A stretch of DNA of 64,000 nucleotides from Paenibacillus lactis. GTDB taxonomy: Bacteria; Bacillota; Bacilli; Paenibacillales; Paenibacillaceae. The position numbers and the translations under genes were made by a program. Location of the stretch: the NCBI RefSeq assembly GCF_017873605.1, contig NZ_JAGGKI010000002.1, positions 434,001 through 498,000 of the forward strand, written 5' to 3'. The notes under the pieces were generated by a model that was not told the origin of the DNA, ran no database searches, and saw nothing but the letters and a program-made list of their open reading frames with translations. Shown here one piece after another: positions 23,904 to 40,321 of this stretch (its first letter is position 1; every line of letters starts with the position of its first letter).

Positions 23904-26900
23904 TCATCTTGGGACCTGTACTTCAGCCGTGACCACCGTCTCATTGCCTGCCTGATCGGTAACGGTATACGTTATCGTGTAGATTCGGCCGGAGCCCTGG
24001 CCTGACCTTGCTGCCCGCAGCAGGAAGGCGGTATCGGGCGTGCCGTAGTCCGCATCCTGAATATCCTCAGGCTGCAGTTCTTCATTGCTCGTAATCGACG
24101 TGAGAACAACCGAGTCGATATCCGAAGCTTCGTCGCTTGCTTCCACGACCACATTCACCTGCGCGAGCTTCTGATTCGGCGGCCACAGCACCGCTTGATC
24201 AAGCGTAACATTCACGCTCGGCGCAGTCCGGTCGATCGGAATGGCCAGCAATGTGGACTTTCCAGTTTCACCCGAAGTATGGACGGCGCGGTATTCGACC
24301 GTATTGACACCGTCCGTATCGATCGTAAATGCGGCGTCGTAAGCCTGCCACTCTCCGCCGTTGACGCGATATTGAATGCTCAAGCCTTCAGGTACGCCGC
24401 CTTCCGCCTCGATGGACACGTTCACCGGCTGAAGGTACCAGTCCCCGCGTCCATCCGGCTGCTCGGGCGATACAGCTGCGGCAAGCTTCACCCGTTCGAT
24501 GCTGTCCGCAAGACCGATGCCGTCGACATGGAAGGAACCGCCAGACCAAGGAATCCGGTTCTCCGGGGCAATCCAGATTTTAATTTTCGTTATGCGGTCC
24601 TTATGCGCCCATTCTCCAAGATCGACTGCCACTTGGGTCCACTGCTTCGCCGGGACATTCTCTTCCGCTTCAAGTATATGCTGATCGCTGTAGATCTTCA
24701 CCCGTACAGTATAAGCTTCGGCCGACGCCGGACCTTGCGAAGGATGAATGCCGAAGAACAGGTACCGCTTGCCTTCGGCGCTCCATGGCTGATCGAACGT
24801 CTTGGCAATCCCTTTGCTGTCGCCCAGCTGTGCTCTCCCCATCACGGATGCCTTCAGTGACCGGCTGCCGCTGGCGGCGATGGAATCATCCATTCCGACC
24901 TGGGAGACGTATTCCGCTTTGGTCCAGCCTTGATCGTCTTGTTCGAAATCAAACCTGACCTCGGCCCCTTCCAGCTGGCCGACCTGAATCGCCTCGGCCT
25001 GGGCTGCATCCGGCATTTCCCGCCGCGCGAGCTTGCTGGCATCAAAAGCCGGCGCGATCTCCGTCCAATCGCCGATGCCGATGATCGGTTTTGCGAATTC
25101 CGTCACCTCGAGCGAGCGCTCGGTATCGATATATTTGAACACATCGTATACGAGCTTGTGCTCGTCAGGGATGTTTAAGCCTTTACTCGTGTCTGGATCA
25201 TGCGTCCACAGACCGAGGTTCAAGCCGTATTCTCCGGCATGATCCACATGCCTGTGCAAGATGAAGGAGTCAATCCCGTCCAGAAAATCGGTAATGTAAT
25301 AGGCATACGCATAAGCGGCCGCCTGCACCCGCTGGCTCTCCGGCGAATTGTCGCCGCTATGAAAGCCCTGCTCCGAAAGGATGATCCGGCGCGCCTCATC
25401 ACCGTACAGGAACTTCGGCTGGTTCATGTATTCTACAAGGACGTGCAGGTTCTTGAACGTGATTTTTGGCGTATCGAATTGCTCCAGCGACTGGGGTGCA
25501 ATCCATGCCCGCGGATCGAACAGGTTCTCCGGGTATGGGTGATAAGCGATATGCCATGGAATATCGCCTTCCGCAGCAATCTCCGCCTGCAGCGTGTCGA
25601 TAATCGAGCGGCCGTCAAACGAGCCGATCTGTGTCGGCGGCAGCTGCTGGTCCCAGTTATGCGTGAGCGAGATGTATACCCTGGCGTTGCTGTAGTAGCT
25701 TTTTACGATCGTATTCGTCAGACGCACCGTCCGGGCATAGTCCGATACGAACTCTCGCACCGTCTTGTCATTGCCCATGTTGTACCATGTCTCGCCCGCG
25801 TCCACCTCGTTGCCGACGATGTAGTTCACGGCCCTTCCGTATTTCTCGTCCTCGCGCGTGTAGCGTTCCGCCAGGAAGGCGGTAATCGCTTTATAGTACT
25901 TCATGCCGAGCTCATCCGTTGTATTGAAGGCATACACAATGCCGTCGGTCGCATCCGGATGGAGGAGATACCGGTTTGGCGTTGTGGCGTCCATCCCGGT
26001 CTTATACATCAACAGGATCAGGGATACCGTCACCCCGTTATCCGACAAGCTCTTAATGGAATTATCCCTCTCTTCGATCCAATCCTTCTTGAAGTAAAAG
26101 GTCTCTCCCTCATGCACGTACTCGAACGTATTGGCCGGGTTAACCGTGCCATCGATATATAAGGCGTTATTGTAGTCCACGTTCAGCGCCGCGTGACTGA
26201 TGCCCAAATCCTCCGCATCGCCCACCATTTGCACCTGGAGCCCCTTTTTGCTCTTCGCAACCGGGAACGGATAAGTTCCGAGCGCGAGCGCATCCGGATT
26301 GCTCACATACTTGGCTCGGTCTACAAGGTCGATCGTCCCGTCCTGCCGGACGATGGCAACGGCGAATTTGGAATATATCCGGGTATGGCCCGCGTCGTCC
26401 GCCAAGCCGATGTCGAACGTGAATCTTTCGGACAAATCCTGCTCGGCTAACGGCGCCCGGTTCTGCAGGTCTCGATCCGATTCGTAAGGCTGGAGCTGAA
26501 ACAATTGTAGCTTTGCGCTCTCATAGGAATCGACCGTTTCCGGGTCGAGCACTCCTTCGATGATGATCCGGTCGAGAGAGGAGGCGATCTCATGCCTGGT
26601 CAGCTCTCCCGGGAAACGCTCGATCGGCGCCAGCTGCTTGAACCGGATCTGATCGATGCCGATCTGTCCCCCGCTTGCTCCGTCCTCGCTTATGAACGAC
26701 AGCCTGAACTGTTTTAAGGTACCGGTCCAGTCGGGACTCAGCGACAGATTGAACTCATACTCGGCGGACGAGGCGTGATTAGCCGCAATATCGAATTCCT
26801 CCGATTTGGCGGTGTCCCAGGCCGGGCTCTCCTCCGTCACCCATTCGACCCTTACTTTATGGAACGAAGCATCATTCCGAAGCTTTACGCTGAGCGTATT

Positions 26901-27728
26901 GTAATGCTCGATGTCCTGAATGATCATGGGAGACTGCAGCACCGGAGCAGCATCCGACACATCCAGCAGCAGCTCGCCGCCGGCCGCGCTCACGGCCGCC
27001 CCCTGCGCGGTAAATCCTTCCGTTTCACCGTCGATGCTGAAGTCCATGCCGATCGCGTTCGACCCGCTGAGATAATCGATTTGATAATTGCCTCCCCAAT
27101 ATTCATAGCCGGGATCTCCTGGCTTCAAGCCGCCGTGGTCAAAATTGAGCATGAACGCGAATTCGATCTTCGTGATCGCATCCCGATGCGCCCAATCCTC
27201 GATGGATACCGCGATTTTGTTCCAGCTGTTCGGGTTGATCTTGGCAATGCTCTCGTAGGCTTCGTCTCCGTTAAACAACGTCGCCTTAATGAGATAATCC
27301 TCCGTCTGCCAGCCATAGCTGTTTGCCGCAAACGTTAAATAGTTTACTCCCGATAAGTCAATGGGCTGTTCAAACTCCTTGGATACGGTTCTCCATTCAT
27401 AGGCTTTGACTTGGTCCGACCAAATCTCCAGCGTATGGCTTCCCTCATAAGGCGTATTCGGGCCGTTCGCATACCGGTCGGCATAGGTAACGTTCTCCGC
27501 ACCGGCTCCCGCGCTCCATTTCCCCGGCTGGTTCACCTCGTCAGGCTGATTAAAATCATCGATGATGATGGACGGCGTGTAACCCGAGACGCTTCTGACA
27601 TGGGCAGATGCTGTCAGGTCAGGGTCATACGTACCTGCAAGGGCAATCCCCGCAGGGAATGATTGCAGGGCAATCGCCGCCATGGCGGCAACGAGCAGCG
27701 GTTTCATGAACCTCTTCAGCTTATTCAC
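23904..27728 (-). CDS. Secreted multidomain DUF5722 protein, putative glycoside hydrolase
   Basis: Exported protein of about 1274 residues. The GTG start at 27728 is set by GAGGAGG with 7-base spacing and is followed at once by a signal peptide (KLKRFMKPLLVAAMAAIALQ... ending near IALA). Two CBM-like beta-sandwich regions come first (WSAGAGAENVTYADRY; later a GQIGIDQIRFK unit). A DUF5722 domain follows at about 440-930, then another carbohydrate-binding-like sandwich (VRFDFEQDDQGWTKAEY) and two Ig-like C-terminal units (IDRTAPSVNVTL, ...YTITYTVTDQAGNETVV). In DUF5722, YIVGNEVDAG (~638) and RIILSEQGFHSG (~784) look like the acid/base and nucleophile strands of a clan GH-A TIM barrel. It lacks SLH repeats and is probably released. 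The substrate is unknown; the operon suggests a rhamnose-containing polymer. Confidence 0.8.
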   Translation of the reverse strand: MNKLKRFMKPLLVAAMAAIALQSFPAGIALAGTYDPDLTASAHVRSVSGYTPSIIIDDFNQPDEVNQPGKWSAGAGAENVTYADRYANGPNTPYEGSHTLEIWSDQVKAYEWRTVSKEFEQPIDLSGVNYLTFAANSYGWQTEDYLIKATLFNGDEAYESIAKINPNSWNKIAVSIEDWAHRDAITKIEFAFMLNFDHGGLKPGDPGYEYWGGNYQIDYLSGSNAIGMDFSIDGETEGFTAQGAAVSAAGGELLLDVSDAAPVLQSPMIIQDIEHYNTLSVKLRNDASFHKVRVEWVTEESPAWDTAKSEEFDIAANHASSAEYEFNLSLSPDWTGTLKQFRLSFISEDGASGGQIGIDQIRFKQLAPIERFPGELTRHEIASSLDRIIIEGVLDPETVDSYESAKLQLFQLQPYESDRDLQNRAPLAEQDLSERFTFDIGLADDAGHTRIYSKFAVAIVRQDGTIDLVDRAKYVSNPDALALGTYPFPVAKSKKGLQVQMVGDAEDLGISHAALNVDYNNALYIDGTVNPANTFEYVHEGETFYFKKDWIEERDNSIKSLSDNGVTVSLILLMYKTGMDATTPNRYLLHPDATDGIVYAFNTTDELGMKYYKAITAFLAERYTREDEKYGRAVNYIVGNEVDAGETWYNMGNDKTVREFVSDYARTVRLTNTIVKSYYSNARVYISLTHNWDQQLPPTQIGSFDGRSIIDTLQAEIAAEGDIPWHIAYHPYPENLFDPRAWIAPQSLEQFDTPKITFKNLHVLVEYMNQPKFLYGDEARRIILSEQGFHSGDNSPESQRVQAAAYAYAYYITDFLDGIDSFILHRHVDHAGEYGLNLGLWTHDPDTSKGLNIPDEHKLVYDVFKYIDTERSLEVTEFAKPIIGIGDWTEIAPAFDASKLARREMPDAAQAEAIQVGQLEGAEVRFDFEQDDQGWTKAEYVSQVGMDDSIAASGSRSLKASVMGRAQLGDSKGIAKTFDQPWSAEGKRYLFFGIHPSQGPASAEAYTVRVKIYSDQHILEAEENVPAKQWTQVAVDLGEWAHKDRITKIKIWIAPENRIPWSGGSFHVDGIGLADSIERVKLAAAVSPEQPDGRGDWYLQPVNVSIEAEGGVPEGLSIQYRVNGGEWQAYDAAFTIDTDGVNTVEYRAVHTSGETGKSTLLAIPIDRTAPSVNVTLDQAVLWPPNQKLAQVNVVVEASDEASDIDSVVLTSITSNEELQPEDIQDADYGTPDTAFLLRAARSGQGSGRIYTITYTVTDQAGNETVVTAEVQVPR

Positions 27729-27831
27729 GTTCAATCCTCCTCGCATGGCTATGAATATGTTCACACACGGATATTACTGCTGCTTCACCATTCACCCCCT
27801 TTCCGCTCTCCTCCGCATTGTTCCGGATCCG

Positions 27832-30192
27832 TTACACAATCATCCCTTCTCGTGTGCTCACAACAAGCTCCGTTCCTTGCTCAGCCTTCACCGTCAGGCA
27901 TTGCGGAATCGTCAGCTCATAGCGCAAACCTCCCCCTTCCTTTCGATTCCAGCGGGCTTCAATCAGCCCGTAACGGGTTGGCACTGCTCCTTCCGCCTCG
28001 GACAAATCACCCGGATCGAATTCAATTCGCACCTCCCGATCGCCAAGCCGTCTCAAATCCAATCCCAGCACATATTGGGTCAAAATATAGCTGGGCGACG
28101 CCCCCCAACCATGGCTGAAGCTCACAGGGATATGATCGATCAGATAGGTCGGCGTGTGTCCCTGATACGGACTCGGCACCGTGCTGAACGGCAGGGCTGG
28201 ATCGAACGTCTCCCACCAGGTCGTCGCTCCGCGGTCCAGCATTCCGCCCCAGTATTCGCGAATAAGGTCCAGCGCGCGCCGGGTTCTCCCTTTGCCGATT
28301 AGCGTTTCAAGGACCACATGATAGAAGAAAGCGCCCTTTAAAGGAGGAAGCTTCCCGGCCTCATACCATTCATCCAGAAACCGATCGGCTTCCTGCGGAT
28401 CCATAACGCCCGACCAGACGGCAGCAAAATTGGTCTGAGCCGTGATCTGAGCCGACAACCCTTCCGGACCGATGCAATCAGCGAATACGATATCGCCGGG
28501 CTTCCGCATCTGCCCCCGGATCGCCGTCCTCAGCCGGGCCGCATGCTCCCGCCACTGCCTTGCCAAATCGTGGAGATCCATCTCGGCAGCCAGATCCGCC
28601 GCCAATCCCAGCGCCTTGTAATAGAAGCAGGAAACGGCCGTCACCCGGTCCCGCCGATCGATGTAATCGGCCCAGTCGATAAAGCACCACCAGCCTGGCC
28701 TGTCGGCCCGTGCAAACAAGCCGCTGGAATCCTCCTGGTCCCGGAACCACGCCATGAGCCGCTCGACCGCTGGCCAGATTTCGCCGAGAAACCCGCGGTC
28801 CTTCGTGTAGAGCCAATGGGCGTGCACGCCGAACAGCCAGTGCGCGCAGAAATCCGGCAGCAGGAACGAATTTCGCTCCGGTCCCGTACCCGGAATGGAG
28901 CCGTCCGGATTCTGAATGCGCGCTCCTTGCAGCAAGCATTTACGAAGCAGCCGTTCGTCGCCGAAAGCATGGTAAATCACTTTGCCCATTACCACGGCAT
29001 CCGCTACCCATAGCGCCTCCTCCCGCAGCGGGCAATCCAGCAGATGATCCTGGCTGTTGACGAGGGTCGTGTAGACGCCGACCTCCCAGATCCGGTTGAG
29101 CCGCTCATCACTGCTTCGGAAATAACCGGACCGGTCAAACGGATAATGCACGGATTCGACGGCAAAATTCGCCACCTTCAACGGAACCGGCGTCGCCTGG
29201 CACGACACCTGCAGAAACCGGAATGCCCGCCGACCGAACGGCTTAAGCCGGTTCATCCCTGGACGCAGAATAAACGTATCGTACAGCTGCAGCTCCAGCG
29301 ATTCCCCATACGACAGCTGGATGACGCCGCCTTCCGGGGCATGAACCTCCAGCTCGGGGTACCCTACCGTTTCCTTGCCGAAGTCGAACACCACCCCGGG
29401 GAGCGATCCGGGGGCGCTTGCATCCAGCGTCCAGCTATCCCAGCCGCTGCCGCCGGCTCCGGCCGATGCTTGCGCTGCTTCGGCCAGCATTCGGCATTCT
29501 CCGGCGCTGACCCCGAAATTGGAGTCCGTCCGGACGATCGCAGCCGGCTTCGCCAATACCCGTTCCAGCGGCGGAATCTCCCGGGGAAGCAGCCGCGGCC
29601 AAGGGGAGTCCGGATCCAGCGCAGCGGCGACTACGGATGCTCCGGCCCATGAAGCATCGTGATAATCGGGCTCCTCCCAGCCATCCTCTTTCTCCGCCAA
29701 GTAAATTTCGCGGAAACCGTTCCACAAATGCTGCCTGGAGACCTGGGCCATCCACCTTGGCGAACGGCGGACCTTCCAGTCGGTATCCGTTGCAATAACA
29801 GCCAGTGTCCCGTCGCCCATCTCTATTTCCAGCTCAGCGATGAGGCCGCCCGGACCCTGCATCTGTCCTGTCACGATATCGGAGGTTCCGAAGTTGTAGG
29901 CGACGATCGCGAGCGCATTCCTTCCTGAGCGGATCAGGCCGGTTACGTCGATTTCGTCGTAATATTTCCACTGAAGGTCAGCGGGAGACGGGCCTCTTCC
30001 CGCAAAGCTTCCGTTGAGGTACACCTGATATTTTTGATTCGCCGACACGAACAGCCGGGCTCGGGAAGCTGATTTTTCAAGATCAAAGCTCTTTCGAGCC
30101 TCCAGGTAAACATTCGGCGTATTGGGGGGAATGTCTCCCCAGATCCAGCTCGCCTGCCATGACGCCTTCTTTTTGTGCAATTCAGCTTTCAT
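27832..30192 (-). CDS. GH78-like alpha-L-rhamnosidase family protein
   Basis: Cytoplasmic (alpha/alpha)6-barrel glycosidase of about 786 residues. The ATG at 30192 is chosen because GGGAGG lies 5 bases upstream and it overlaps the previous stop by 4 bases (ATGA), a coupled start. The N-terminal part (ASWIWGDIPPNTPNVYLEARK... YQVYLNGSFAGRGP) is the ligand-binding sandwich common to these enzymes. The barrel holds LLDCPLREEALWVAD at about 385, the equivalent of the GH78 general-acid segment, and later FSHGWGASPSY. Divergent in sequence from the other two GH78-like proteins of the operon, so probably different linkage specificity. Confidence 0.86.
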   Translation of the reverse strand: MKAELHKKKASWQASWIWGDIPPNTPNVYLEARKSFDLEKSASRARLFVSANQKYQVYLNGSFAGRGPSPADLQWKYYDEIDVTGLIRSGRNALAIVAYNFGTSDIVTGQMQGPGGLIAELEIEMGDGTLAVIATDTDWKVRRSPRWMAQVSRQHLWNGFREIYLAEKEDGWEEPDYHDASWAGASVVAAALDPDSPWPRLLPREIPPLERVLAKPAAIVRTDSNFGVSAGECRMLAEAAQASAGAGGSGWDSWTLDASAPGSLPGVVFDFGKETVGYPELEVHAPEGGVIQLSYGESLELQLYDTFILRPGMNRLKPFGRRAFRFLQVSCQATPVPLKVANFAVESVHYPFDRSGYFRSSDERLNRIWEVGVYTTLVNSQDHLLDCPLREEALWVADAVVMGKVIYHAFGDERLLRKCLLQGARIQNPDGSIPGTGPERNSFLLPDFCAHWLFGVHAHWLYTKDRGFLGEIWPAVERLMAWFRDQEDSSGLFARADRPGWWCFIDWADYIDRRDRVTAVSCFYYKALGLAADLAAEMDLHDLARQWREHAARLRTAIRGQMRKPGDIVFADCIGPEGLSAQITAQTNFAAVWSGVMDPQEADRFLDEWYEAGKLPPLKGAFFYHVVLETLIGKGRTRRALDLIREYWGGMLDRGATTWWETFDPALPFSTVPSPYQGHTPTYLIDHIPVSFSHGWGASPSYILTQYVLGLDLRRLGDREVRIEFDPGDLSEAEGAVPTRYGLIEARWNRKEGGGLRYELTIPQCLTVKAEQGTELVVSTREGMIV

Positions 30193-32336
30193 CCCAGCCT
30201 CCCTGCCAGCTCCGCCCCTCGGATGCGGGCCGATTTGATCATACGACCGTCCTTCTCCAATCTCCACTCCACCGAAATGGGTCCCCGCGGGCTCGGGATC
30301 ACGCCGCTTGCCGCCGTTAGCCCTCCGATGGCATGAGGTTCAAACGCAATGCGTTCATATCCGGGAGAAAGCGCCCGAATGCCGAGCACATACTTGGCGA
30401 TCCACACGACCGGCGTACTGGACCAGCTATGGCACAGACTCATCCTGTAGGAGCTGTACGCGGTATATGTGGTCAGCGCGTGGTGAATATCGCTGCTCGG
30501 CGTCAGCCTCACGCCTTCCCAAAAGGTCGTTGCTCCCGCATCCAGCATCGTCCCCCACACGGTGGCAATCACTTCCCACGCCCGCTCGTGCATTCCATGC
30601 TCCGAATAGCACTCGGCCAGCCAATAAGCCGAAAGCGGGGTGAGCGGGTCCCTCAGCCGATAGCCAAGCAGAAACCGGCGTGCATGCTCTTTACCGACAT
30701 ACCCGCTCTTAATGCCGATGACCGAAGTCAGCAACGCGTAGGAGGAGCCGATGAATCGGCTCTCGTCAAGCTCCGCGCGCGGCTCACCCCACTGAATGCC
30801 AAGCTCCGGTATATCCCCTGCCAGCTGCTGCATTTGGCTCTTCGTCATGCTATAAATCGCATTCAAGCACGCCCAGGACTCGGACTCGGCCATCGGCGAC
30901 CATTCGATGAAGGAGTAAGTCCCCTCGGCCTCCGGCATGAACACCCCGGTGCCGGCATCCGCATTCGCCCTTACCCAGGCGATATGCCGCAGCAGCTCCT
31001 CCCGGAGCTCCAGCACAAACGCACGGTCGCCCGTCTCAAAGTAGTACTCCCAAATGCTGCTGAGCCACCACAGCGTATAGGAGGGCAGATTGTTCATCCA
31101 ATAGCCGTAAGGCGTCCGGCCCAGCTCGCGAAGCGACCGTTTCAGGACGGAGTAATCGTCCCACAGCGAATATTCGGTTTTGGCTGCCAAATAAATATCG
31201 TACGCCCAATTCAGACGGTCCCGCTTGATGCCGTCCCACAGCCCGATTTGGTGGCATACCCGGCTTGTATGGACCGATACATCATAGATTCGCCGCATCA
31301 ACGGCTGATCGACCTGCAATTGCCCGACCTGGTTCAGTGCAACGCCGGCAGCCTCCAGCCGAATCTCGGCTTGGAAGGGCGCTCCGCAATCCCCGCTCAC
31401 GTACATCCTGACGTAGCGCATGCCTTGGGGATTGGTTGCGACGGCGCTCCCCGCAGGCACGGTCAGCCATTCGGTCATGCATCCGTCGTAATGCAGCAGC
31501 TCTTGCAAAGATTCCGCGCCGTTCCATAACAGACCGATCTCCGTATCCCCCCTGTTCTCGACCCAAAACCGCACGTTCAGCTCCTGAGGCAGTTCAAGCA
31601 GCAGCTGCGGCACCCGGCTTAAATCCAGCTGGCGCTGCTGCGTCCGGCGTTCCTTCCACTCGCCCTGCTTCAGGAGATGGTAGAAAATATGCCGCTCGTT
31701 CCGGGCCTTTACCTCCCCCAGGAGGATCGGTCCGGTTGTAGTCCCTTGTAGAAGAAAGGCGCCATCCTGATCAGAGTCCGCCACCATGCCGTTAACCGAC
31801 ATAACGTTCACGCCATGGATCGGCTCGGTAGCGATATCGCCGTAACCGCCGGCAATGAACCAGCCGGGAGCCCCGTCCAGATCACCGAAGGGCTCCTCGC
31901 CCCATACGCACACCACTTCGGCGGGGGAATCGCCAGCGCTCCAGGTCTCGTCCGTGGCCAGCCACAATCCTTCACTTCCGCTTATATACGCGATACAGCC
32001 GACCGAGCGGTCGTGCAGATGCATGTTGATCGGATGCATGGGCATCGATACCGTGTTGCGGATTTCCAAACGAATCGTGTACGCCCCCGGCTCCAGCCGG
32101 TCCGGCAATCCTTCTACCTTGAAGAATGCCGACGTATGCCTGGCGTGCTCCGCAACGCGACCAACGGGCGCTCCGTTCAGCATGATTTCCACTTCTCCCG
32201 TGCAGGCAAGCTTCATCTCTATCCGCTCCGCCTCTTGCAGAACAAAGGATCTCTCCAGCACGATCCGTCGTCTGCCTTCCCGTTCCGGGTGCCAGATCCA
32301 GCTGGGAATCTTCTCCGCTTGTCTGTGTATATTCAT
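30189..32336 (-). CDS. GH78-like glycosidase, DGIKRDRLNW type
   Basis: Cytoplasmic (alpha/alpha)6-barrel protein of about 715 residues. The ATG at 32336 follows GGAG with 8-base spacing; the longer open frame upstream has no ribosome binding site and would run into the permease gene. The N-terminus (IPSWIWHPEREGRRRIVLERSF) starts a beta-sandwich, and the barrel motif LWDGIKRDRLNWAYD at about 370 is the signature region of rhamnosidase-related enzymes. LCHSWSSTPVVWIAKYVLG near the C-terminus is also typical. It lies 26 bases after the MalG-type permease gene. Exact glycosidic specificity cannot be read from sequence. Confidence 0.84.
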   Translation of the reverse strand: MNIHRQAEKIPSWIWHPEREGRRRIVLERSFVLQEAERIEMKLACTGEVEIMLNGAPVGRVAEHARHTSAFFKVEGLPDRLEPGAYTIRLEIRNTVSMPMHPINMHLHDRSVGCIAYISGSEGLWLATDETWSAGDSPAEVVCVWGEEPFGDLDGAPGWFIAGGYGDIATEPIHGVNVMSVNGMVADSDQDGAFLLQGTTTGPILLGEVKARNERHIFYHLLKQGEWKERRTQQRQLDLSRVPQLLLELPQELNVRFWVENRGDTEIGLLWNGAESLQELLHYDGCMTEWLTVPAGSAVATNPQGMRYVRMYVSGDCGAPFQAEIRLEAAGVALNQVGQLQVDQPLMRRIYDVSVHTSRVCHQIGLWDGIKRDRLNWAYDIYLAAKTEYSLWDDYSVLKRSLRELGRTPYGYWMNNLPSYTLWWLSSIWEYYFETGDRAFVLELREELLRHIAWVRANADAGTGVFMPEAEGTYSFIEWSPMAESESWACLNAIYSMTKSQMQQLAGDIPELGIQWGEPRAELDESRFIGSSYALLTSVIGIKSGYVGKEHARRFLLGYRLRDPLTPLSAYWLAECYSEHGMHERAWEVIATVWGTMLDAGATTFWEGVRLTPSSDIHHALTTYTAYSSYRMSLCHSWSSTPVVWIAKYVLGIRALSPGYERIAFEPHAIGGLTAASGVIPSPRGPISVEWRLEKDGRMIKSARIRGAELAGRLG

Positions 32337-32362: not shown

Positions 32363-33193
32363 TTATATTTTCAAGGCACCCTGCGTAACCCCTTGAATGT
32401 AGTACTTCATCCCGAAGCTGAACAGCAGCACGAGCGGAATCGCCGAAATGATATAAGCTGCGAATTCCACGCCCATGTTGGATATGCCGAACTGGTTCGT
32501 AAACTGCGTAAGACCGACGCCAATCATCTGAATGCTGTTCGATTTGATCGTGAGCAGCGGCCAAATATAGTCGTTGTAAATACCGACCGATTGCATGATC
32601 ATCAGGGTCATGAGAACCGGAACCGACAACGGCAGCACCATTCTCGTAAAAACGACGAATTCGCCTGCGCCGTCGATTTTGGCCGCATCAAACAGCTCAT
32701 TGGAAATCCCCGCCATGAAGCTTCTGCACAGAAACGTGCCGAAGATTTGTCCTCCAGCCGCGGCGCTGATAATAATAACCCAGGGCGTATTGACCAGGCC
32801 CAGGTTCGCATACAGCACGTACGACGGGATAAGGGTCATCACGCCCGGGATCATCATGATCGCGAGCATCATCATGAAGAGCAACTCCTTGCCGAGGAAT
32901 TCCTTCTTGGCAAAGGTGTAGCCCGCCACAGCGGACAAGGCCACCACGAGCGTGCCTCCCACCGCCGCATACAGCACGGTGTTCAAGGTGTAGCGCCAAA
33001 TGGCCGCGAACGCTTCCGCATAATTGCCGATTTGCGCCGGGACGGGCAGCGTCCAGATGCCTCCTAGAATCTGGGCGTTATTTTTGAAGGATGAGATCAG
33101 CGTAAAGACGATCGGGGCGAGGGTTAATCCTACAAAAACCGTAATCAGCACATAAAGCGCCGACTGCTGAACAAGCCTTGCCTTGGTATTCAT
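32363..33193 (-). CDS. Carbohydrate ABC transporter permease, MalG family
   Basis: Inner-membrane permease of 276 residues with six hydrophobic spans. The cytoplasmic EAA loop NELFDAAKIDGAGEFVVF...LPLS docks on the ATPase, and the C-terminus MKYYIQGVTQGALKI is the standard MalG-type ending. It pairs with the propeller-fused MalF-type permease encoded 12 bases upstream. No ATPase gene occurs in the operon, as is usual for CUT1 importers of Bacillota that share an MsmX/MsmK-type ATPase. Confidence 0.95.
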   Translation of the reverse strand: MNTKARLVQQSALYVLITVFVGLTLAPIVFTLISSFKNNAQILGGIWTLPVPAQIGNYAEAFAAIWRYTLNTVLYAAVGGTLVVALSAVAGYTFAKKEFLGKELLFMMMLAIMMIPGVMTLIPSYVLYANLGLVNTPWVIIISAAAGGQIFGTFLCRSFMAGISNELFDAAKIDGAGEFVVFTRMVLPLSVPVLMTLMIMQSVGIYNDYIWPLLTIKSNSIQMIGVGLTQFTNQFGISNMGVEFAAYIISAIPLVLLFSFGMKYYIQGVTQGALKI

Positions 33194-33205: not shown

Positions 33206-35116
33206 CTAGTCCGTATTCGTTTTGATAAATTTCATATTGATGACCGTAATGATCATTATGATGGCAAACATGCTGACGCCGAGCGCCGAGGCATACCCCA
33301 GATCATTGAATTTCGTAGCGGCAAAATACATCTGCAGCGCCGGTACGTAGGTTGAATCCGCCGGCCCGCCCCCCGTTACGATCAGAATCGAGCCGAAGTC
33401 CTGGATGATGCCGATCAGCCCGAGCACGATCAGCAGCTTGAATTGCCCGGCCAGCAGCGGCAGATGGATGGTGCGGATAATCCGGAAGGATTTGGCCCCG
33501 TCGATCCTGGCCGCTTCAATGACCTCGTCCGGAATGGCGATCAGCCCCGAGTAGAGCACCAGCAGCTGAAGAATGCCGACGAACGGGAAGCCCATCATGA
33601 TGATAGCCCACAGCGCGGTATTCGGGTCTCCCAGCCATGCATGGCTAAGCGATCCGAGCCCGATCATCCGCAGAACCTGATTCACGAGACCGATGTTCGG
33701 ATCATACATATCCTGCCAGACCAGCAGCATGCCGACGGATGGAATGACCATGGAAATAACAAAGAACGTACGGAATACGTATTGTGATCTCTTGCTTCTC
33801 AGATGGTAGATCAGCTCCGCTACAATCAGCGGAGGGATGAGAGCCTTAATCAGCCCGGTCACGATCAGGATCAGAAGATTGCCCACGCCTTTAGTGACGT
33901 ACGGATCATTCAGCATGCGCCTGAAATTGTCCAGGCCGATGAATTCGCTCCTGGCCCCCGGATTCCAGTCATATAAGGAATGAATCAAGCCGGAGAAAGC
34001 CGGGATATACAGGAATATGATCAGAAGCGTGAAGCTCGGCAGAAGCATGGCATAGGCCAGCTTGCTCCTCCACAATCGCTGAAGGATGTGGGGCTTCTTG
34101 CGCCAAAGCCACAGGAACAACAGTGCGATCAGCACGATGGAGACCACGACCGCCCCGATTTGAAGCATCTTCTGAGTCATCGCCGCTTGTTTGCCTTGCG
34201 CAAGCACGGCTCCGACTTCATATTGGAAAACGGCTCCTTGATCCGATCCTGCAAAGAGCCTCGTGCCGTCAGCGCTGAATCGGATTTGCTGGCCGGCACC
34301 AACCTCCTTCGTGCTCCACAGCAGAGAGCCGCCCTCGTCCGCCACGTAATAATTGCCGGAATAATCAGCGACCGCAACAAATGCTCCGTCATTGGTGATA
34401 TGGACAGATGTGACCTTGTCCTTGGTCACCAGTTCGCCAAGGCTGTCGCCTTCGGACGAGTAGATGACCGCTTTATTGTTGGACGATCCTACGACCAGCG
34501 TGCCATTGTCGCCGACGGCCACATGCTGGATATCACCGTCTAGGGGGATCTGAAATAGCTGCTCTCCGGAAGGGCCGAACATATAAGCATACTGATTGGC
34601 CGCACCCGCTGCCAGCCATTGCCCATTCGGCGATAAGGCTGCTGTCTTCACGGCGATGCCCACAGGGATCTCTTGCAGCACCTCTCCCTGTTCGTCCAGC
34701 AAACGAATCACGCTTTCGTTGTGGAGCGTTATGATCACTCGTTTGCCGTCCGGTGTTGCCGATAAATTCTTGATCATTTTTCGGAAATCCCTGCTCCAGA
34801 TCTCCTCGCCCTTCGCATCAAGCTTATACAGATGCCGGTCGTCGGAGGAGACCAGCATCTGTCCGTCATTCAGAAGCGCGACACCGGTAACGACGTTTTT
34901 TGCCGCAAATTCGAACTGCTGCGTGCCATCTTGCTGAAGCAATATTGCGGTTGCATTCTGCGTGCCGACCGCCACCTGCTCGCCGTCTTCGGAGATGGAC
35001 ATCGCTTTGATCGTCAGCCCCTGCTCCATGGTCCAGATCGGCACGGAGGCATAAATCGGCGGGATCCACAGACATAGCAGCAGCAGTACTAATAGGATGG
35101 ATTTGATTGCCCGCAT
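33206..35116 (-). CDS. Fusion of extracytoplasmic beta-propeller domain with MalF-type ABC permease
   Basis: Protein of 636 residues, about twice the length of a normal MalF permease. Residues ~1-24 form a signal-like first helix (SILLVLLLLCLWIPPIYA). Residues ~25-305 are seven or so repeated beta-blade units of WD40/PQQ type (MSISEDGEQVAVGTQNATAILL, LSATPDGKRVIITLHNESVIRLL, LSPNGQWLAAGAAN, ITNDGAFVAVADYSGNYYVA, FSADGTRLFAGSDQG). A helix at ~318-340 crosses the membrane, and ~350-636 is a complete CUT1 permease (LLPSFTLLIIFLYIPAFSG; EAA loop DEVIEAARIDGAKSFRII). The propeller should face outward, next to the binding protein. One continuous frame, no frameshift. Function of the propeller is unknown: it may sense ligand, gate transport or bind polymer. 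Confidence 0.93.
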   Translation of the reverse strand: MRAIKSILLVLLLLCLWIPPIYASVPIWTMEQGLTIKAMSISEDGEQVAVGTQNATAILLQQDGTQQFEFAAKNVVTGVALLNDGQMLVSSDDRHLYKLDAKGEEIWSRDFRKMIKNLSATPDGKRVIITLHNESVIRLLDEQGEVLQEIPVGIAVKTAALSPNGQWLAAGAANQYAYMFGPSGEQLFQIPLDGDIQHVAVGDNGTLVVGSSNNKAVIYSSEGDSLGELVTKDKVTSVHITNDGAFVAVADYSGNYYVADEGGSLLWSTKEVGAGQQIRFSADGTRLFAGSDQGAVFQYEVGAVLAQGKQAAMTQKMLQIGAVVVSIVLIALLFLWLWRKKPHILQRLWRSKLAYAMLLPSFTLLIIFLYIPAFSGLIHSLYDWNPGARSEFIGLDNFRRMLNDPYVTKGVGNLLILIVTGLIKALIPPLIVAELIYHLRSKRSQYVFRTFFVISMVIPSVGMLLVWQDMYDPNIGLVNQVLRMIGLGSLSHAWLGDPNTALWAIIMMGFPFVGILQLLVLYSGLIAIPDEVIEAARIDGAKSFRIIRTIHLPLLAGQFKLLIVLGLIGIIQDFGSILIVTGGGPADSTYVPALQMYFAATKFNDLGYASALGVSMFAIIMIITVINMKFIKTNTD

Positions 35117-35223: not shown

Positions 35224-36897
35224 CTACTGCCTAACCGGCGGCTGCCGCTCCGGATGCTCAAGGTCGGAGAGCTCCTTCTTGCGTTCCTTCAGCATAGCCT
35301 CAAACTTGGCATCAATGTCGGCCTGGTACTGCTTCAGCAATTGGTCCACATCGATTTCATCGTTGAAATATTTGGAGATGAGGCCGATGTAGCTCTGCAC
35401 GGACGGCTGATAGTCGTGGAGACCGCGCGCCAGCACATTGCCCGGGCTGTTCAGTCCTTCCGTGTTTCCGATCGCGTCGAACGACTCGAATGTCTTCTTC
35501 ATTTCCTCCGGCAGCTCGATATCGTTTAACAGCGGAGCGCCGCTTAAGGAAGCATCCTTGGAGTTTTGAACAGCCTCAAGGTATACCTTGTATCCTTCCG
35601 GACTGGTCAGATACATCATGAAATCAATGTTCAGTGCGGTCTGCTCCGCATTCTTTTTGACAAAGCCGTAAAAACCGGTATAGATATGGATCGTTCTAGC
35701 AGGCGCCTGCACCAGCTCCCCTTCCATGGAAGGCATGTTGAAGAATCCGAAATCGAATGATTTTACGCCTCCGCTCTCGCCCGTCTTCTCCGCATCGGCA
35801 AAATCCTTCGGAAGCTGCCAATAAGAGGACGGCAGCGCAACCATGGTTGCGGCCTTGCCGGTTAGGAACAGCTTGTAGGCCTGCTCCTCCGACATGCCCA
35901 TGAATCCCTCGGGTGCGTAGCTGAACAAGGTCTTCAGATTGGTCAACACCTCGCGCCAAGCAGGATTGCCCTCGACTTTGTATGGACCGACCTTGTCTTT
36001 GATTGCCTTATACATCCGCAGCTCATTCGTCGACACATTGGAACGGGAATCGTTGTACGGATCGTTTAGATCGAACTTCCAGTTATCGTCGATGCTCGGC
36101 ATATAGGTATAATCTTCCGGCTTGGACCGGATCAGCTCCACATAGTCGCGGAAATACTGGTCCGGATAAATGCGCATCAGCCAACCTGCCTGACCGCTCC
36201 ATAAGGAGAGCGCATTGCCGCCGATCGTAAACGGGATGTACCCTGCTGCCTTCAGCTTGTCAAAAGCCGCGGTCAGCTCGTTAAAGGTTTTCGGGGTGTC
36301 TGTGATGCCGGCCTTCTCAAACATCTCTTTGTTGTACATCCACAAAATTTGCACCGATTCGAAGTTCAGCGCTTGCAGCGTTTGCAGGTTAGGATCATCC
36401 AAATTGACGCCCATGCCGTCAAGATTGAAGCTTTCCTTCCAGAGCTTCCCCGTATAGGGGTTCTCCGTCTCCAGCCAAGGCTTGAAATCGACGAATTTCT
36501 GGTCTTCATTCAGATCGCTGTTCTCATTCGTGTTCACAAAATCGGCCTCCGGTTCCCCGGCGGCAAACTGGGCCTGCAACCAATCCCGGTACCCCTCGGC
36601 CGGCTTGATATCCACGACGACTTTAACGTCAGGATGCTTCGCCATATAGGCTTCGGCTACCTTGCCCCATACTTCAGCGGAGGCTCCGCGCAAGGAGATC
36701 TGGATGGTGCCGCTTTTTGATGGTGCTGCCGGCTGGCCGGTAGCAGGTTCTGCGGGTGTCGTATTGTCGTTATTGTCGTTACTAACGGGAGTCGGTGCCG
36801 GTTCGGCACGGTTGGCGCTGCCGCCGGAACAAGCGGCGAGCAGCGTAATGAGCGAGGTGATCAGGATGAGGCTAACGAATCTTCGAAATGGAAACAT
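35224..36897 (-). CDS. Extracellular solute-binding lipoprotein, carbohydrate ABC transporter
   Basis: Membrane-anchored substrate-binding protein of about 557 residues, large for family 1. The ATG at 36897 is chosen for GGGGGAG 8 bases upstream and because the lipoprotein signal starts there: FRRFVSLILITSLITLLAAC with lipobox LAAC, lipidated Cys23. A Ser/Pro/Asn linker follows, then the SBP_bac_1 fold (IQISLRGASAEVWGKVAEAYMAKHPDVKVVVDI, split by turns; FNELTAAFDKLKAAGYIPFTIGG; GKAATMVALPSSYWQL). First gene of the transport operon; a palindromic LacI-type operator lies about 100 bases upstream. Confidence 0.94.
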   Translation of the reverse strand: MFPFRRFVSLILITSLITLLAACSGGSANRAEPAPTPVSNDNNDNTTPAEPATGQPAAPSKSGTIQISLRGASAEVWGKVAEAYMAKHPDVKVVVDIKPAEGYRDWLQAQFAAGEPEADFVNTNENSDLNEDQKFVDFKPWLETENPYTGKLWKESFNLDGMGVNLDDPNLQTLQALNFESVQILWMYNKEMFEKAGITDTPKTFNELTAAFDKLKAAGYIPFTIGGNALSLWSGQAGWLMRIYPDQYFRDYVELIRSKPEDYTYMPSIDDNWKFDLNDPYNDSRSNVSTNELRMYKAIKDKVGPYKVEGNPAWREVLTNLKTLFSYAPEGFMGMSEEQAYKLFLTGKAATMVALPSSYWQLPKDFADAEKTGESGGVKSFDFGFFNMPSMEGELVQAPARTIHIYTGFYGFVKKNAEQTALNIDFMMYLTSPEGYKVYLEAVQNSKDASLSGAPLLNDIELPEEMKKTFESFDAIGNTEGLNSPGNVLARGLHDYQPSVQSYIGLISKYFNDEIDVDQLLKQYQADIDAKFEAMLKERKKELSDLEHPERQPPVRQ

Positions 36898-36997
36898 GAC
36901 TTTCACTCCCCCTAAGCGTTCAATGTATTCGCTTACATTTATGTGAAGTCTAAGCTGATCAAGTTGACCTGCATCACTCCCTTCAATGACGATGGGG

Positions 36998-37055: not shown

Positions 37056-38069
37056 TCAGGTCGATTCTCTTTCGCACACGGTGCAAGGCAGTACAATGGT
37101 CTGGATATCATCAAAGCCGATCTCGCCGTCGATCAGCTTCATCAGCAGCTTCGCCGCTTCGAGTCCCATCTGTCGCATCGGCAGCTCGATCGAGGTGATG
37201 GACGGACGGGCCAGCTGGGATACGACGGTATTGTCGAAGCCGATGACCGCTACGTCGTCCGGCACTGCATAGCCGAGCTCCTGCGCCCGCTCCACAACGC
37301 GGGAGGCAATGACGTCCCGGCCTGCGATAATAGCGGTTGGGCGGTCCTTCAGGCTCAGCAGCTTCTCGGTTTCCGCATATCCGCTGTCCTGCTCGAACGA
37401 ACCGATGGCAACCAGCTGCTCGTCGAACCGGCCCACGAATTCCTCCATCGCCAGACGATACCCGTTATACCGGTCAAGCGAGGCATCCACCTCCAGCGTG
37501 CATGGCGTAATAAGCGCAATGCGGCGGTGGCCCTTGCCGACTAAATACTTCACCGCTTCGTATGCCCCTTGTTCGTTATCCGCGTTAACGCTGTGGCATA
37601 GACCCGGGATGGCGGGCCTTCCAAGCAGCACGAACGGGAAGCGGTTCTTGATCAATTCATCGAATGGCTGATTGATGGCTGCCCCCATCAAAATCAGGCC
37701 GTCGGCCGACTGCTTCCGGTACACGTCGAGCAGATGATCCGCAAGCTTGCTTGTGCTGGGCTTCTGGAAGGAGAGCAGCAGATCGTAATTATTATCTCCC
37801 GTCGCCTGCCCGAGACCCTTGATCACGTCAAGAAGAATGCTGTTCTCCAGCCCGTCTACGGTGTCCTCGACGACCAAGCCGATGTTGTTCGTCTTCTTGG
37901 TCACTAATCCGCGCGCCGATTGATTCGGCCGGTAATTCAGCTTCTCGATTGCTTCAAAAATGCGTTTCTTCGTCGCTTCGGCCACATGGGCCGATCCATT
38001 CATCGCGAAGGATACGGTACATACTGCCACTCCCGCTTCGCGGGCGACGTCTCTAATGGTTGCTGCCAT
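37056..38069 (-). CDS. LacI-family transcriptional regulator
   Basis: DNA-binding regulator of about 337 residues. The ATG at 38069 follows AAGGAG and opens directly on the helix-turn-helix (ATIRDVAREAGVAVCTVSFAMNG, residues ~3-25) and hinge (LNYRPNQSARGLVT). The rest is a periplasmic-binding-protein-like effector domain (NNIGLVVEDT, LLGRPAIPGLCHSVNADNE, DDVAVIGFDNTVVSQL). The longer open frame at the 5' end has no ribosome binding site and covers the operators. It should repress the downstream uptake/hydrolysis operon and itself through TACAAAAACGTTTTTGTA-type sites, released by an oligosaccharide or monosaccharide that is not known. Confidence 0.95.
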   Translation of the reverse strand: MAATIRDVAREAGVAVCTVSFAMNGSAHVAEATKKRIFEAIEKLNYRPNQSARGLVTKKTNNIGLVVEDTVDGLENSILLDVIKGLGQATGDNNYDLLLSFQKPSTSKLADHLLDVYRKQSADGLILMGAAINQPFDELIKNRFPFVLLGRPAIPGLCHSVNADNEQGAYEAVKYLVGKGHRRIALITPCTLEVDASLDRYNGYRLAMEEFVGRFDEQLVAIGSFEQDSGYAETEKLLSLKDRPTAIIAGRDVIASRVVERAQELGYAVPDDVAVIGFDNTVVSQLARPSITSIELPMRQMGLEAAKLLMKLIDGEIGFDDIQTIVLPCTVCEREST

Positions 38070-38404: not shown

Positions 38405-40321
38405 ATGAAATTACGTTTCGAGGGCCTAACCGCGGATATTGAATCCGGTGCCCGGATATTGTTGCATGAGCTTGGCGTGGAGATGAGTGAGGACGGATTT
38501 CCTGTCCGCATCGGACAGTCGGAGGGCGAACTCGTGGTCGGCCGCGAAGCGGACCATGCCTACATCCGCTATGGGGCGAAGCATCAATTCTTCCGTGGAT
38601 TGGGCCTGCTCGTTCAGCACAGCCGCCAGCGCGAAGCCTTCCATATTCGGGAACAACAACAATTCGACCAGATCGGGCCTATGCTCGACCTGTCCCGCAA
38701 TGCAGTGCTCACGGTAGAGAGCTTCAAGCTGATGCTGAATAAACTCGCCTTAATGGGCATGAATACCGTCATGCTGTATATGGAGGATACGTACGAGATC
38801 GATGATGAGCCCTATTTTGGATATATGCGGGGCCGCTATACGCAGGAGGAGCTGCGGGAAATCGACGACTATGCCGATCAATTCGGCATTGAGGCGTTCC
38901 CGAGCATCCAGACCTTGGCACATCTGGAGGAATTCCTGAAGTGGGAGCCGATCAAGCATTACCGCGATACGAAGGGAGCGCTGCTCGTTGGCAGCGAGCG
39001 AACCGATTCCCTTATTGAACGGATGATCGAAGCAGCCACCGCCCCGTTCCGCAGCAAGAAAATCCACATCGGCATGGACGAGGCGGAGGAGCTCGGCCGC
39101 GGCAAATATTTGGACCTGAACGGATATGAGAGCCGCTTCGACATCATGCTCGCGCACCTGGACAAAGTGCTGGCTGCCGTCCGCAAGCGCGGACTCAAGC
39201 CGATGATGTGGAGCGACATGTTCCTCAAGCTCGCTTCAGGCGGAGGCGGCGATGCGGCATATTACGCTAAGGACACCTCGATCCCGGAAGAGATGGCCCG
39301 CCGCATCCCGAAGGACGTGGACATGGTGTACTGGGACTATACCCACATGGAGCCGGGGGACTATGAGAAGTTGATCGCAAATCACCGTCCTCTCGGCTGC
39401 AACCTCGTCTTTGCCGGCGCGGTTTGGATTTTCAATACGTTCGGCGTCAATTACGGGCTCTCCCTTAACGCATCCGATGTCGCATTGCAGATGTGTAAGC
39501 AGGAGGGCATCCGCGAGGTATACGCAACCATGTGGGGAGACGACGGAAATGAGGGCAATCCGTTCGCGGCCCTGCTGGGCCTTCAGTTATACGCAGAGCA
39601 TGCCTACTCGGAGCAAAAACCCTCCTGGGCCCACTTGGCCGAACGGGTAAAATTCTGCACGGGCATCGAGATGGACACCTTTCTGCTGCTCAAAGATCTG
39701 GACGAAATTCCGGGCCAGGAGCCGAACAATGCGAAGCAAAGTAATCCATCTAAATTTCTGCTGTACCAGGATGTGCTTCTCGGTTTATTCGACAAGCAGA
39801 TTGAGGGCTTGGACCTCGCGAACCATTACGCGGAGCTGGAGCAGCGCATTCGCGACAAGCGCTGCCCGGATGCCGGGCTGGATTATCTGTTCGACATGCC
39901 GGAAAAGCTGAGCGCCGTATTGAAGCGCAAAAGCGAAATCGGCATTACGTTGAAGCATGCCTATGATGCCAAGGATCACGAGTCGCTGCGGCAAATCGCC
40001 AAAAGCGTGCTTCCTGCCATCGCGGATGCCGTCCGTGACCTGCGCGCCTCGCACCGCATCCAGTGGCACCGGATGTTCAAGCCTTTCGGCTGGGAGGTCA
40101 TCGATATCCGCTACGGCGGCGTCCTCACCCGCCTGGACACCGCATCGCTCCGCATTCTTGATTATGTGGACGGACGAATCCCGCGGCTCGAGGAGCTGGA
40201 GCAGGAGCGGCTCGTGTTCAGCACCACCAACCGCTTCAACCACAAAGGCGTCGGCTGGTGCAGCCACTATTACCGGATGGCGTCGCCAAACGTATTCTAT
40301 CATGTGCTGAATCCGTTCTGA
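38405..40321 (+). CDS. Glycoside hydrolase family 20 beta-N-acetylhexosaminidase
   Basis: Exo-acting enzyme that removes terminal beta-GlcNAc/GalNAc, 638 residues, the length of the Paenibacillus Hex1-type subfamily. No signal peptide is seen, so it is probably cytoplasmic. The N-terminal GH20b-like domain covers residues 1 to ~95. The barrel follows (GPMLDLSRNAVLTVESFKLMLNKLALMGMNTVMLY, split by a turn). The catalytic Asp225-Glu226 pair lies in IHIGMDEAEELG; the Asp orients the substrate N-acetyl group and the Glu is the acid. WSDMF and VYWDYTHMEP line the site. AGGGGGA precedes the ATG. Divergent from lacI, so it may share regulation with the neighbouring operon. Confidence 0.92.
   Translation: MKLRFEGLTADIESGARILLHELGVEMSEDGFPVRIGQSEGELVVGREADHAYIRYGAKHQFFRGLGLLVQHSRQREAFHIREQQQFDQIGPMLDLSRNAVLTVESFKLMLNKLALMGMNTVMLYMEDTYEIDDEPYFGYMRGRYTQEELREIDDYADQFGIEAFPSIQTLAHLEEFLKWEPIKHYRDTKGALLVGSERTDSLIERMIEAATAPFRSKKIHIGMDEAEELGRGKYLDLNGYESRFDIMLAHLDKVLAAVRKRGLKPMMWSDMFLKLASGGGGDAAYYAKDTSIPEEMARRIPKDVDMVYWDYTHMEPGDYEKLIANHRPLGCNLVFAGAVWIFNTFGVNYGLSLNASDVALQMCKQEGIREVYATMWGDDGNEGNPFAALLGLQLYAEHAYSEQKPSWAHLAERVKFCTGIEMDTFLLLKDLDEIPGQEPNNAKQSNPSKFLLYQDVLLGLFDKQIEGLDLANHYAELEQRIRDKRCPDAGLDYLFDMPEKLSAVLKRKSEIGITLKHAYDAKDHESLRQIAKSVLPAIADAVRDLRASHRIQWHRMFKPFGWEVIDIRYGGVLTRLDTASLRILDYVDGRIPRLEELEQERLVFSTTNRFNHKGVGWCSHYYRMASPNVFYHVLNPF

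Follow-up and report, generated by a model that had tools for sequence, protein, structure and literature searches.

A predicted extracytoplasmic beta-propeller fused to a MalF-type permease in Paenibacillus and Cohnella, and its possible role as a docking platform

CUT1 importers are a main route by which oligosaccharides enter numerous soil-dwelling Gram-positive bacteria, and the permeases of these importers are commonly regarded as bare channels. In the permeases of the OpuA and GlnPQ type, substrate-binding domains are fused to the transmembrane subunit, and E. coli MalF, a MalF-type CUT1 permease that pairs with a MalG-type subunit and a solute-binding protein (SBP), carries a large extracytoplasmic domain, P2, between TM3 and TM4. 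Contacts between P2 (residues 91-271) and the binding protein MalE have been described (PMC3150292). A beta-propeller that cooperates with an ABC importer's SBP is AztD, a zinc-binding protein of the periplasm or cell surface, which is described as a separate protein that transfers zinc and has two conserved high-affinity zinc sites (PMC6689063). In the system analysed here, the propeller is instead fused to a permease of the sugar type. Among the matches listed in the open-licence literature, judged from titles and abstract openings, no description of such a fusion was found, in agreement with the preliminary description, which had regarded it as a candidate for an undescribed mechanism; it might be described elsewhere.

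The fusion is located in a 64,000-nucleotide stretch of Paenibacillus lactis DNA (the window), in which positions 33206..35116 of the minus strand form a single stop-free frame of 636 aa, the uninterrupted frame that the preliminary description had claimed. On the same strand, the gene encodes, in order, a signal-peptide-like hydrophobic segment (residues 1-24; 35045..35116), a seven-bladed beta-propeller assigned from Pfam, AlphaFold2 and structure matches (residues 28-300; 34217..35035), a TM helix assigned by hydropathy and followed by a basic segment of the inside type (residues 317-335; 34112..34168), and a MalF-type CUT1 permease core (residues 350-636; 33209..34069) that contains the EAA loop (residues 531-554; 33455..33526). 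The fused protein thus resembles MalF in its permease type, its large extracytoplasmic domain and its partners, but P2 is inserted in a later loop within the core and is not a propeller, whereas the propeller precedes the core. With the OpuA/GlnPQ type it shares an extracytoplasmic domain fused to a transmembrane subunit; however, the domain fused there is the SBP, while here it is a propeller and the SBP is encoded by a separate lipoprotein gene.

The N-terminal domain is predicted with high confidence to be a seven-bladed WD40-like propeller. In Pfam searches, this part exceeded the cut-offs of PQQ_2 (49.1 bits) and of WD40 (44.4 bits), and AlphaFold2, run with 21 aligned sequences (the window and 20 named loci, the broken L092 being left out), predicted 28 strands that form seven four-stranded blades at residues 28-300, with a block pLDDT of mostly 86-94, followed by a long helix. 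According to the blade assignment read from the predicted strand list, the N-terminal strand 28-31 closes blade 7. The solved structures matched with Foldseek and VIA-align were WD40 proteins with seven blades, the highest VIA Z being 37.6 over 277 residues; WD repeat-containing protein 61 (3ow8; Z 37.3 over 275 residues) and the WD40 domain of 5yzv (Z 36.4 over 276 residues) have the same fold at 18-19% identity, and neither is, to our knowledge, a part of a transporter. A sequence search against solved structures retrieved propellers with the first half of the protein, and MalF and AlgM1 with the second half, the MalF chains matching the permease core over profile positions 390-634. The beta-propeller of the preliminary description was therefore recovered in the whole-protein model as well as by Pfam. 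The permease half of the model was poor (most blocks of residues 341-636 had a pLDDT of 31-64), and thus no orientation of propeller and permease relative to one another is claimed.

The permease half, described earlier as a full MalF-type permease with its EAA loop, matched BPD_transp_1 at residues 439-626 with 55.6 bits against a cut-off of 26.4. The segment at residues 531-554, read directly in the translation, is what we take to be the EAA coupling-loop motif with its conserved G, and G540, I550 and P553 are invariant in 24/24 rows of the alignment A2. The matches to the NCBIfam permease equivalogs UgpA, GlcT and MalF were all below the curated cut-offs, so that none of these named subfamilies fits the fused permease. 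Judged by its domain, its EAA loop and its MalG and SBP neighbours, the protein is the MalF-type permease of a CUT1 ABC importer, the transport itself being predicted.

It should be noted that the fusion is a real and conserved single gene and no sequencing accident. The full-length architecture is common to 39 distinct sequences, the window's included, so that chance is not in question. Two separate genes, the finding that the preliminary description had named as contradicting it, or a frame error are ruled out by the single frame present in all 39 proteins. Two broken copies were encountered, in Paenibacillus sp. CC-CFT747 (L092) and in the stop-containing G278 (L063); the pieces of fusion and MalG have the same lengths in one copy as in the other, MalG being split too, and in L092 both GH78a and GH78b are also in pieces. 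This looks like assembly frame errors or decay.

Conservation of the architecture extends to a number of relatives within Paenibacillus and Cohnella. Among the 109 permease-type matches obtained in the own genome, where 150 of 205 candidates were scored, one extends into the propeller, and none of the remainder begins before query residue 336. The preliminary description had called such a domain unusual for a CUT1 permease, which holds within this genome; nevertheless, the fusion is no lone curiosity. The profile search across propeller and junction that had been proposed, performed with a profile that also included the first permease helices, gave matches at 1e-30 in at least 25 of the 392 genomes sampled from the order, or about 6%, 24 of them intact and G278 interrupted by a stop. 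Full-length relatives were present in at least 11 of 100 genomes of the genus, own genome included. At 1e-40, the fusion was found in at least one of 398 sampled genomes of the class (the own genome) and in at least two of 398 of the phylum, namely, the own genome and the distant, divergent G1085, in whose order at least one of four genomes has it. All genome counts are lower bounds, mostly the best few candidates per genome having been scored. The named genomes, which overlap with the sampled ones, contributed 21 loci, 12 from Paenibacillus and nine from Cohnella, and 20 of these have an intact fusion. Two groups were distinguished: group A with 32 distinct rows including the window, 17 of which are aligned with the window in A2 and are 48-84% identical to it, and group B with seven rows (L064-L067, L070, L071 and L074), of which the six in A2 are 27-30% identical to the window, and L074, outside A2, is 29% identical. 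As a side observation, the permease half of the query has 109 matches in this 6.7-Mb genome, which represents a very large importer complement.

The predicted membrane placement follows from the charge pattern. The segment after the post-propeller helix contains 5-8 basic and 0-2 acidic residues in 39/39 distinct fused proteins, which, by the positive-inside rule, places it inside and the propeller outside. We infer that the propeller is extracytoplasmic, as the preliminary description had assumed, and is anchored to the membrane surface through the helix leading into the permease core. By standard propeller geometry rather than from coordinates, the bottom (tethered) face would be directed toward the membrane and the top face outward. 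The signal-like N-terminal helix of the preliminary description was retained as a hydrophobic segment, but a strict AxA cleavage site is absent in the window's copy, and its cleavage is uncertain. A simple hydropathy and motif script, and no trained predictor, underlies these topology calls, according to which the N-terminus is signal-peptide-like in group A, with a strict AxA site in 20/32 rows, and resembles an uncleaved anchor in group B (0/7).

Just upstream of the fusion, the window contains the gene of the solute-binding lipoprotein that the preliminary description had placed there (35224..36900, minus strand, about 558 aa with the start placed by comparison with relatives); it matches SBP_bac_1 at E 1.2e-20 (Pfam), and its lipobox cysteine is invariant in 22/22 aligned group A rows, while in group B the lipobox pattern is present in six of the seven rows and absent in L102. 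By its model, the SBP comes closest to proteins that bind chitin oligosaccharides, raffinose and xylo-oligosaccharides (15-18% identity), and therefore the cargo is probably an oligosaccharide. The minus strand also encodes the MalG-type partner permease (32363..33193, 276 aa), a GH78-like protein, GH78a (30189..32336, start inferred from relatives, many aligning from ORF residue 77), an alpha-L-rhamnosidase-type GH78 protein, GH78b (27832..30192, start inferred), a DUF5722 protein that, on reading, has a signal-peptide-like N-terminus (23904..27764) and a regulator of the LacI family (37056..38069, start inferred). The GH78 neighbours suggest a rhamnose-containing cargo in the window's lineage; the term DUF5722 was absent from the literature matches listed.

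The order SBP-fusion-MalG, with the genes adjacent, was found in all 21 named loci (in L092 in pieces), and the three genes are likewise adjacent in 7/7 group B loci. LacI-type matches are present in 21/21 named loci and GH78b-type genes in 20/21, L078 being weak at 26%. GH78a with at least 46% identity was found in eight of the 21, a total of 18 being reached when weak matches of 25-29% are included, several of which are at the GH78b position, and it was detected in none of the seven group B loci. DUF5722 matches are within the fetched stretch of 12/21 named loci and in none of the fetched 20-kb stretches of the seven group B loci; with flanks that end at about 10 kb, its apparent absence from these seven and from nine of the 21 group A loci is provisional. 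The group B neighbours include a sulfatase (L097), a GHL6 protein (L099) and an SLH/DUF4838 protein (L096) in three loci, several other neighbours being without a Pfam match and others outside the search. The protein in L096 (392-7711, minus strand), beside the group B fusion, is 2440 aa long and has three S-layer homology stretches in addition to DUF4838.

A maximum-likelihood tree was calculated for the permease domains of 39 distinct fused proteins (from 50 fused sequences) and 41 unfused ones; L039 of the 42 unfused loci failed the length/coverage filter, manual exclusions comprised the second L081 permease and the fragments of L061, L063, L092 and L095, and L130 (G190), found later, is outside both the tree and the neighbourhood counts. 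All fused sequences are on one side of a branch with support 88/95, and three unfused sequences adjoin them in a joint clade with support 99/92, the unfused rows being the best matches to the window, so that sister groups may be missing. A single origin of the fusion is the simplest reading, with which the tree is compatible without being proof. In the three unfused sisters (L103-L105), the permease frame is 287-295 aa long and the operon also encodes an SBP and a MalG, and in 3/3 loci a neighbour is 44-47% identical to the window's GH78a. A 24-row propeller profile detected the propeller in 7/7 group B loci and none in the sister loci, which span 12.8-19.9 kb each; six of the seven group B loci were training rows of the profile, while L102, outside the training set, matched at 3.3e-33. 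This makes an independent acquisition of the propeller in group B less likely, bearing in mind that any seven-bladed propellers might cross-match somewhat. No recent copy of another propeller of the own genome was found at 1e-5 in a single-sequence search, which is insensitive and failed to detect the propeller that G262, of group B, carries. Since the sisters have GH78a without a propeller (3/3), and group B has the propeller without GH78a (7/7), the propeller does not track that enzyme and is an optional module independent of it. Its retention in differing enzyme contexts indicates a role that seems to concern the translocator in general rather than any one substrate.

Across seven locus pairs, dN/dS was 0.067-0.156 for the propeller, 0.025-0.047 for the permease and 0.015-0.060 for the SBP, and for MalG, which gave a value in six pairs, it was 0.020-0.094; several dS values are saturated, and these ratios serve for ranking only. 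The propeller values are 1.8-5.4 times those of the permease and 2.6-8.9 times those of the SBP, and the linker-helix stretch at residues 301-349 is the loosest in most pairs (0.083-0.606, six pairs with a value). A dN/dS well below 1 means that the propeller is selected for: it is under purifying selection, yet less constrained than its partners. Over 20 loci, the mean pairwise identity is 50% in the propeller, compared with 73% in the SBP, 76% in MalG and 80% in the permease. In the covariation set, from which L095 (MalG start unsure) and the broken L092 were omitted, the distances of propeller and SBP gave a non-significant partial r of 0.19 (permutation p 0.083, 20 loci), while the residual covariation of the propeller with its own permease was stronger (0.53). 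With loop faces assigned from the canonical strand order and not from coordinates, conservation of the top and bottom faces did not differ significantly (permutation p 0.28 for 21 named-set rows, 0.27 for 18 group A rows and 0.52 for all 24); without glycines, the top means exceeded the bottom means in the same three sets (0.673 versus 0.588, 0.644 versus 0.565 and 0.525 versus 0.476; no permutation test). Among the polar residues of the top face in group A, N74, D92, D93 and Q175 are present in 18/18 rows and D233 in 94%, but only D93 is invariant across the 24 rows of A2. No feature of the SBP was seen to track the propeller, the SBPs of the unfused sisters being equally large with a comparable C-terminal end. 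The C-terminal tail of the SBP was considered as a propeller ligand and rejected, the PERxPPxR-like end in group A having a comparable DLDPKTNP-like counterpart in the unfused sisters; the tail was modelled at a pLDDT of about 88 and not as a loose end (coordinates not inspected).

The reading that we favour, tentatively and with a probability of roughly 0.4, is that the propeller might serve outside the cell as a platform on which the binding protein docks, in function similar to P2 of MalF. The protein is the MalF-type subunit of a CUT1 oligosaccharide ABC importer, extended at the N-terminus by a propeller that is predicted to be extracytoplasmic. As an accessory platform where the translocator opens to the outside, the propeller would keep the lipoprotein binding protein close and oriented through the transport cycle, much as periplasmic P2 does for MalE. 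Energy for the importer would come from a shared MsmX-type ATPase, because no ATPase is among the eight operon-side proteins that were searched. Docking is proposed because the propeller is predicted to be outside, is attached to the translocator, is general to the operon type and does not depend on one set of enzymes, and because of the analogy to MalF-P2. Several observations count against it: both the covariation with the SBP and the conservation of the outer face are non-significant, the faster evolution of the propeller is not as expected of a tight obligate interface with the SBP, and P2 is elsewhere in MalF and no propeller. It is improbable that these proteins represent a class of importers in which the permease-tethered propeller is a second, non-SBP receptor that relays ligand or the loaded SBP to the translocator, and we know of no type I importer with a relay step of that kind.

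Docking has to be weighed against other roles, among them those suggested in the preliminary description (binding of polymer, gating of the channel, reporting of occupancy and scaffolding of the secreted enzyme), all of which would be conjectural here. The propeller could bind glycan directly, capturing oligosaccharide or polymer near the channel and feeding the SBP, which would suit an operon that encodes glycan-degrading enzymes, the conserved polar residues in the top-face loops of group A and a faster evolution, as under exposure to changing ligands. However, the propeller does not follow the enzymes, neither in the sisters that keep GH78a nor in group B without it, D93 is the only one of these polar residues that is invariant over the 24 rows, and no glycan-binding propeller family was above the Pfam cut-off in the fused protein, so that this role, although possible, is unlikely. 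Slightly less likely again is a structural or assembly module without a ligand of its own, serving stability, subunit pairing or spacing from the cell wall. It would explain why the propeller evolves faster than permease, SBP and MalG, has no significantly conserved face and is absent from the nearest sister clade, but it fits less well with long retention across diverged lineages at a dN/dS well below 1. A scaffolding role, in which the propeller would keep a secreted enzyme encoded in the operon close to the importer, would be compatible with the DUF5722 protein with its signal-like N-terminus in the same stretch and similar sequences in 12 of the 21 named loci. The lack of a DUF5722 match in the fetched 20-kb stretches of all seven group B loci, with their flanks of about 10 kb, counts against this role, which we regard as very improbable. 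A propeller that reports occupancy of the transporter or senses ligand, and thereby regulates expression or uptake, has just the predicted outside location and the tether to the permease in its favour and is the least probable. Against it, no signalling domain was found in the protein among the 25 of 26 Pfam families listed, and the adjoining regulator is of the LacI type, matches of which occur in 21/21 named loci.

Irrespective of its role, a conserved and selected outside domain on a permease indicates that some translocators carry an extra accessory part. The related systems that lack the propeller beside the same type of enzyme offer a natural comparison with and without it, which is directly testable.

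Additional proteins were observed in the vicinity. A family of 570-590 aa (L075:2380-4149 and relatives) occurs near the fusion in 11/21 named loci and was not found near the seven group B or the three unfused sister loci; Pfam gave no match at 1e-5 for the L075 copy, and the ten other members are 59-88% identical to it. In the window, a GH20-type protein with a Glyco_H_20C_C domain is encoded at 38405-40321 on the plus strand, divergently from the transporter operon, and among the 21 named loci (tblastn, 1e-15) it has a relative only in Paenibacillus lautus (86%). A 2090-aa frame at 42364-48636 on the minus strand has a signal-like start and, on reading, resembles a secreted multi-domain nuclease/phosphatase with an S-layer-like C-terminus.
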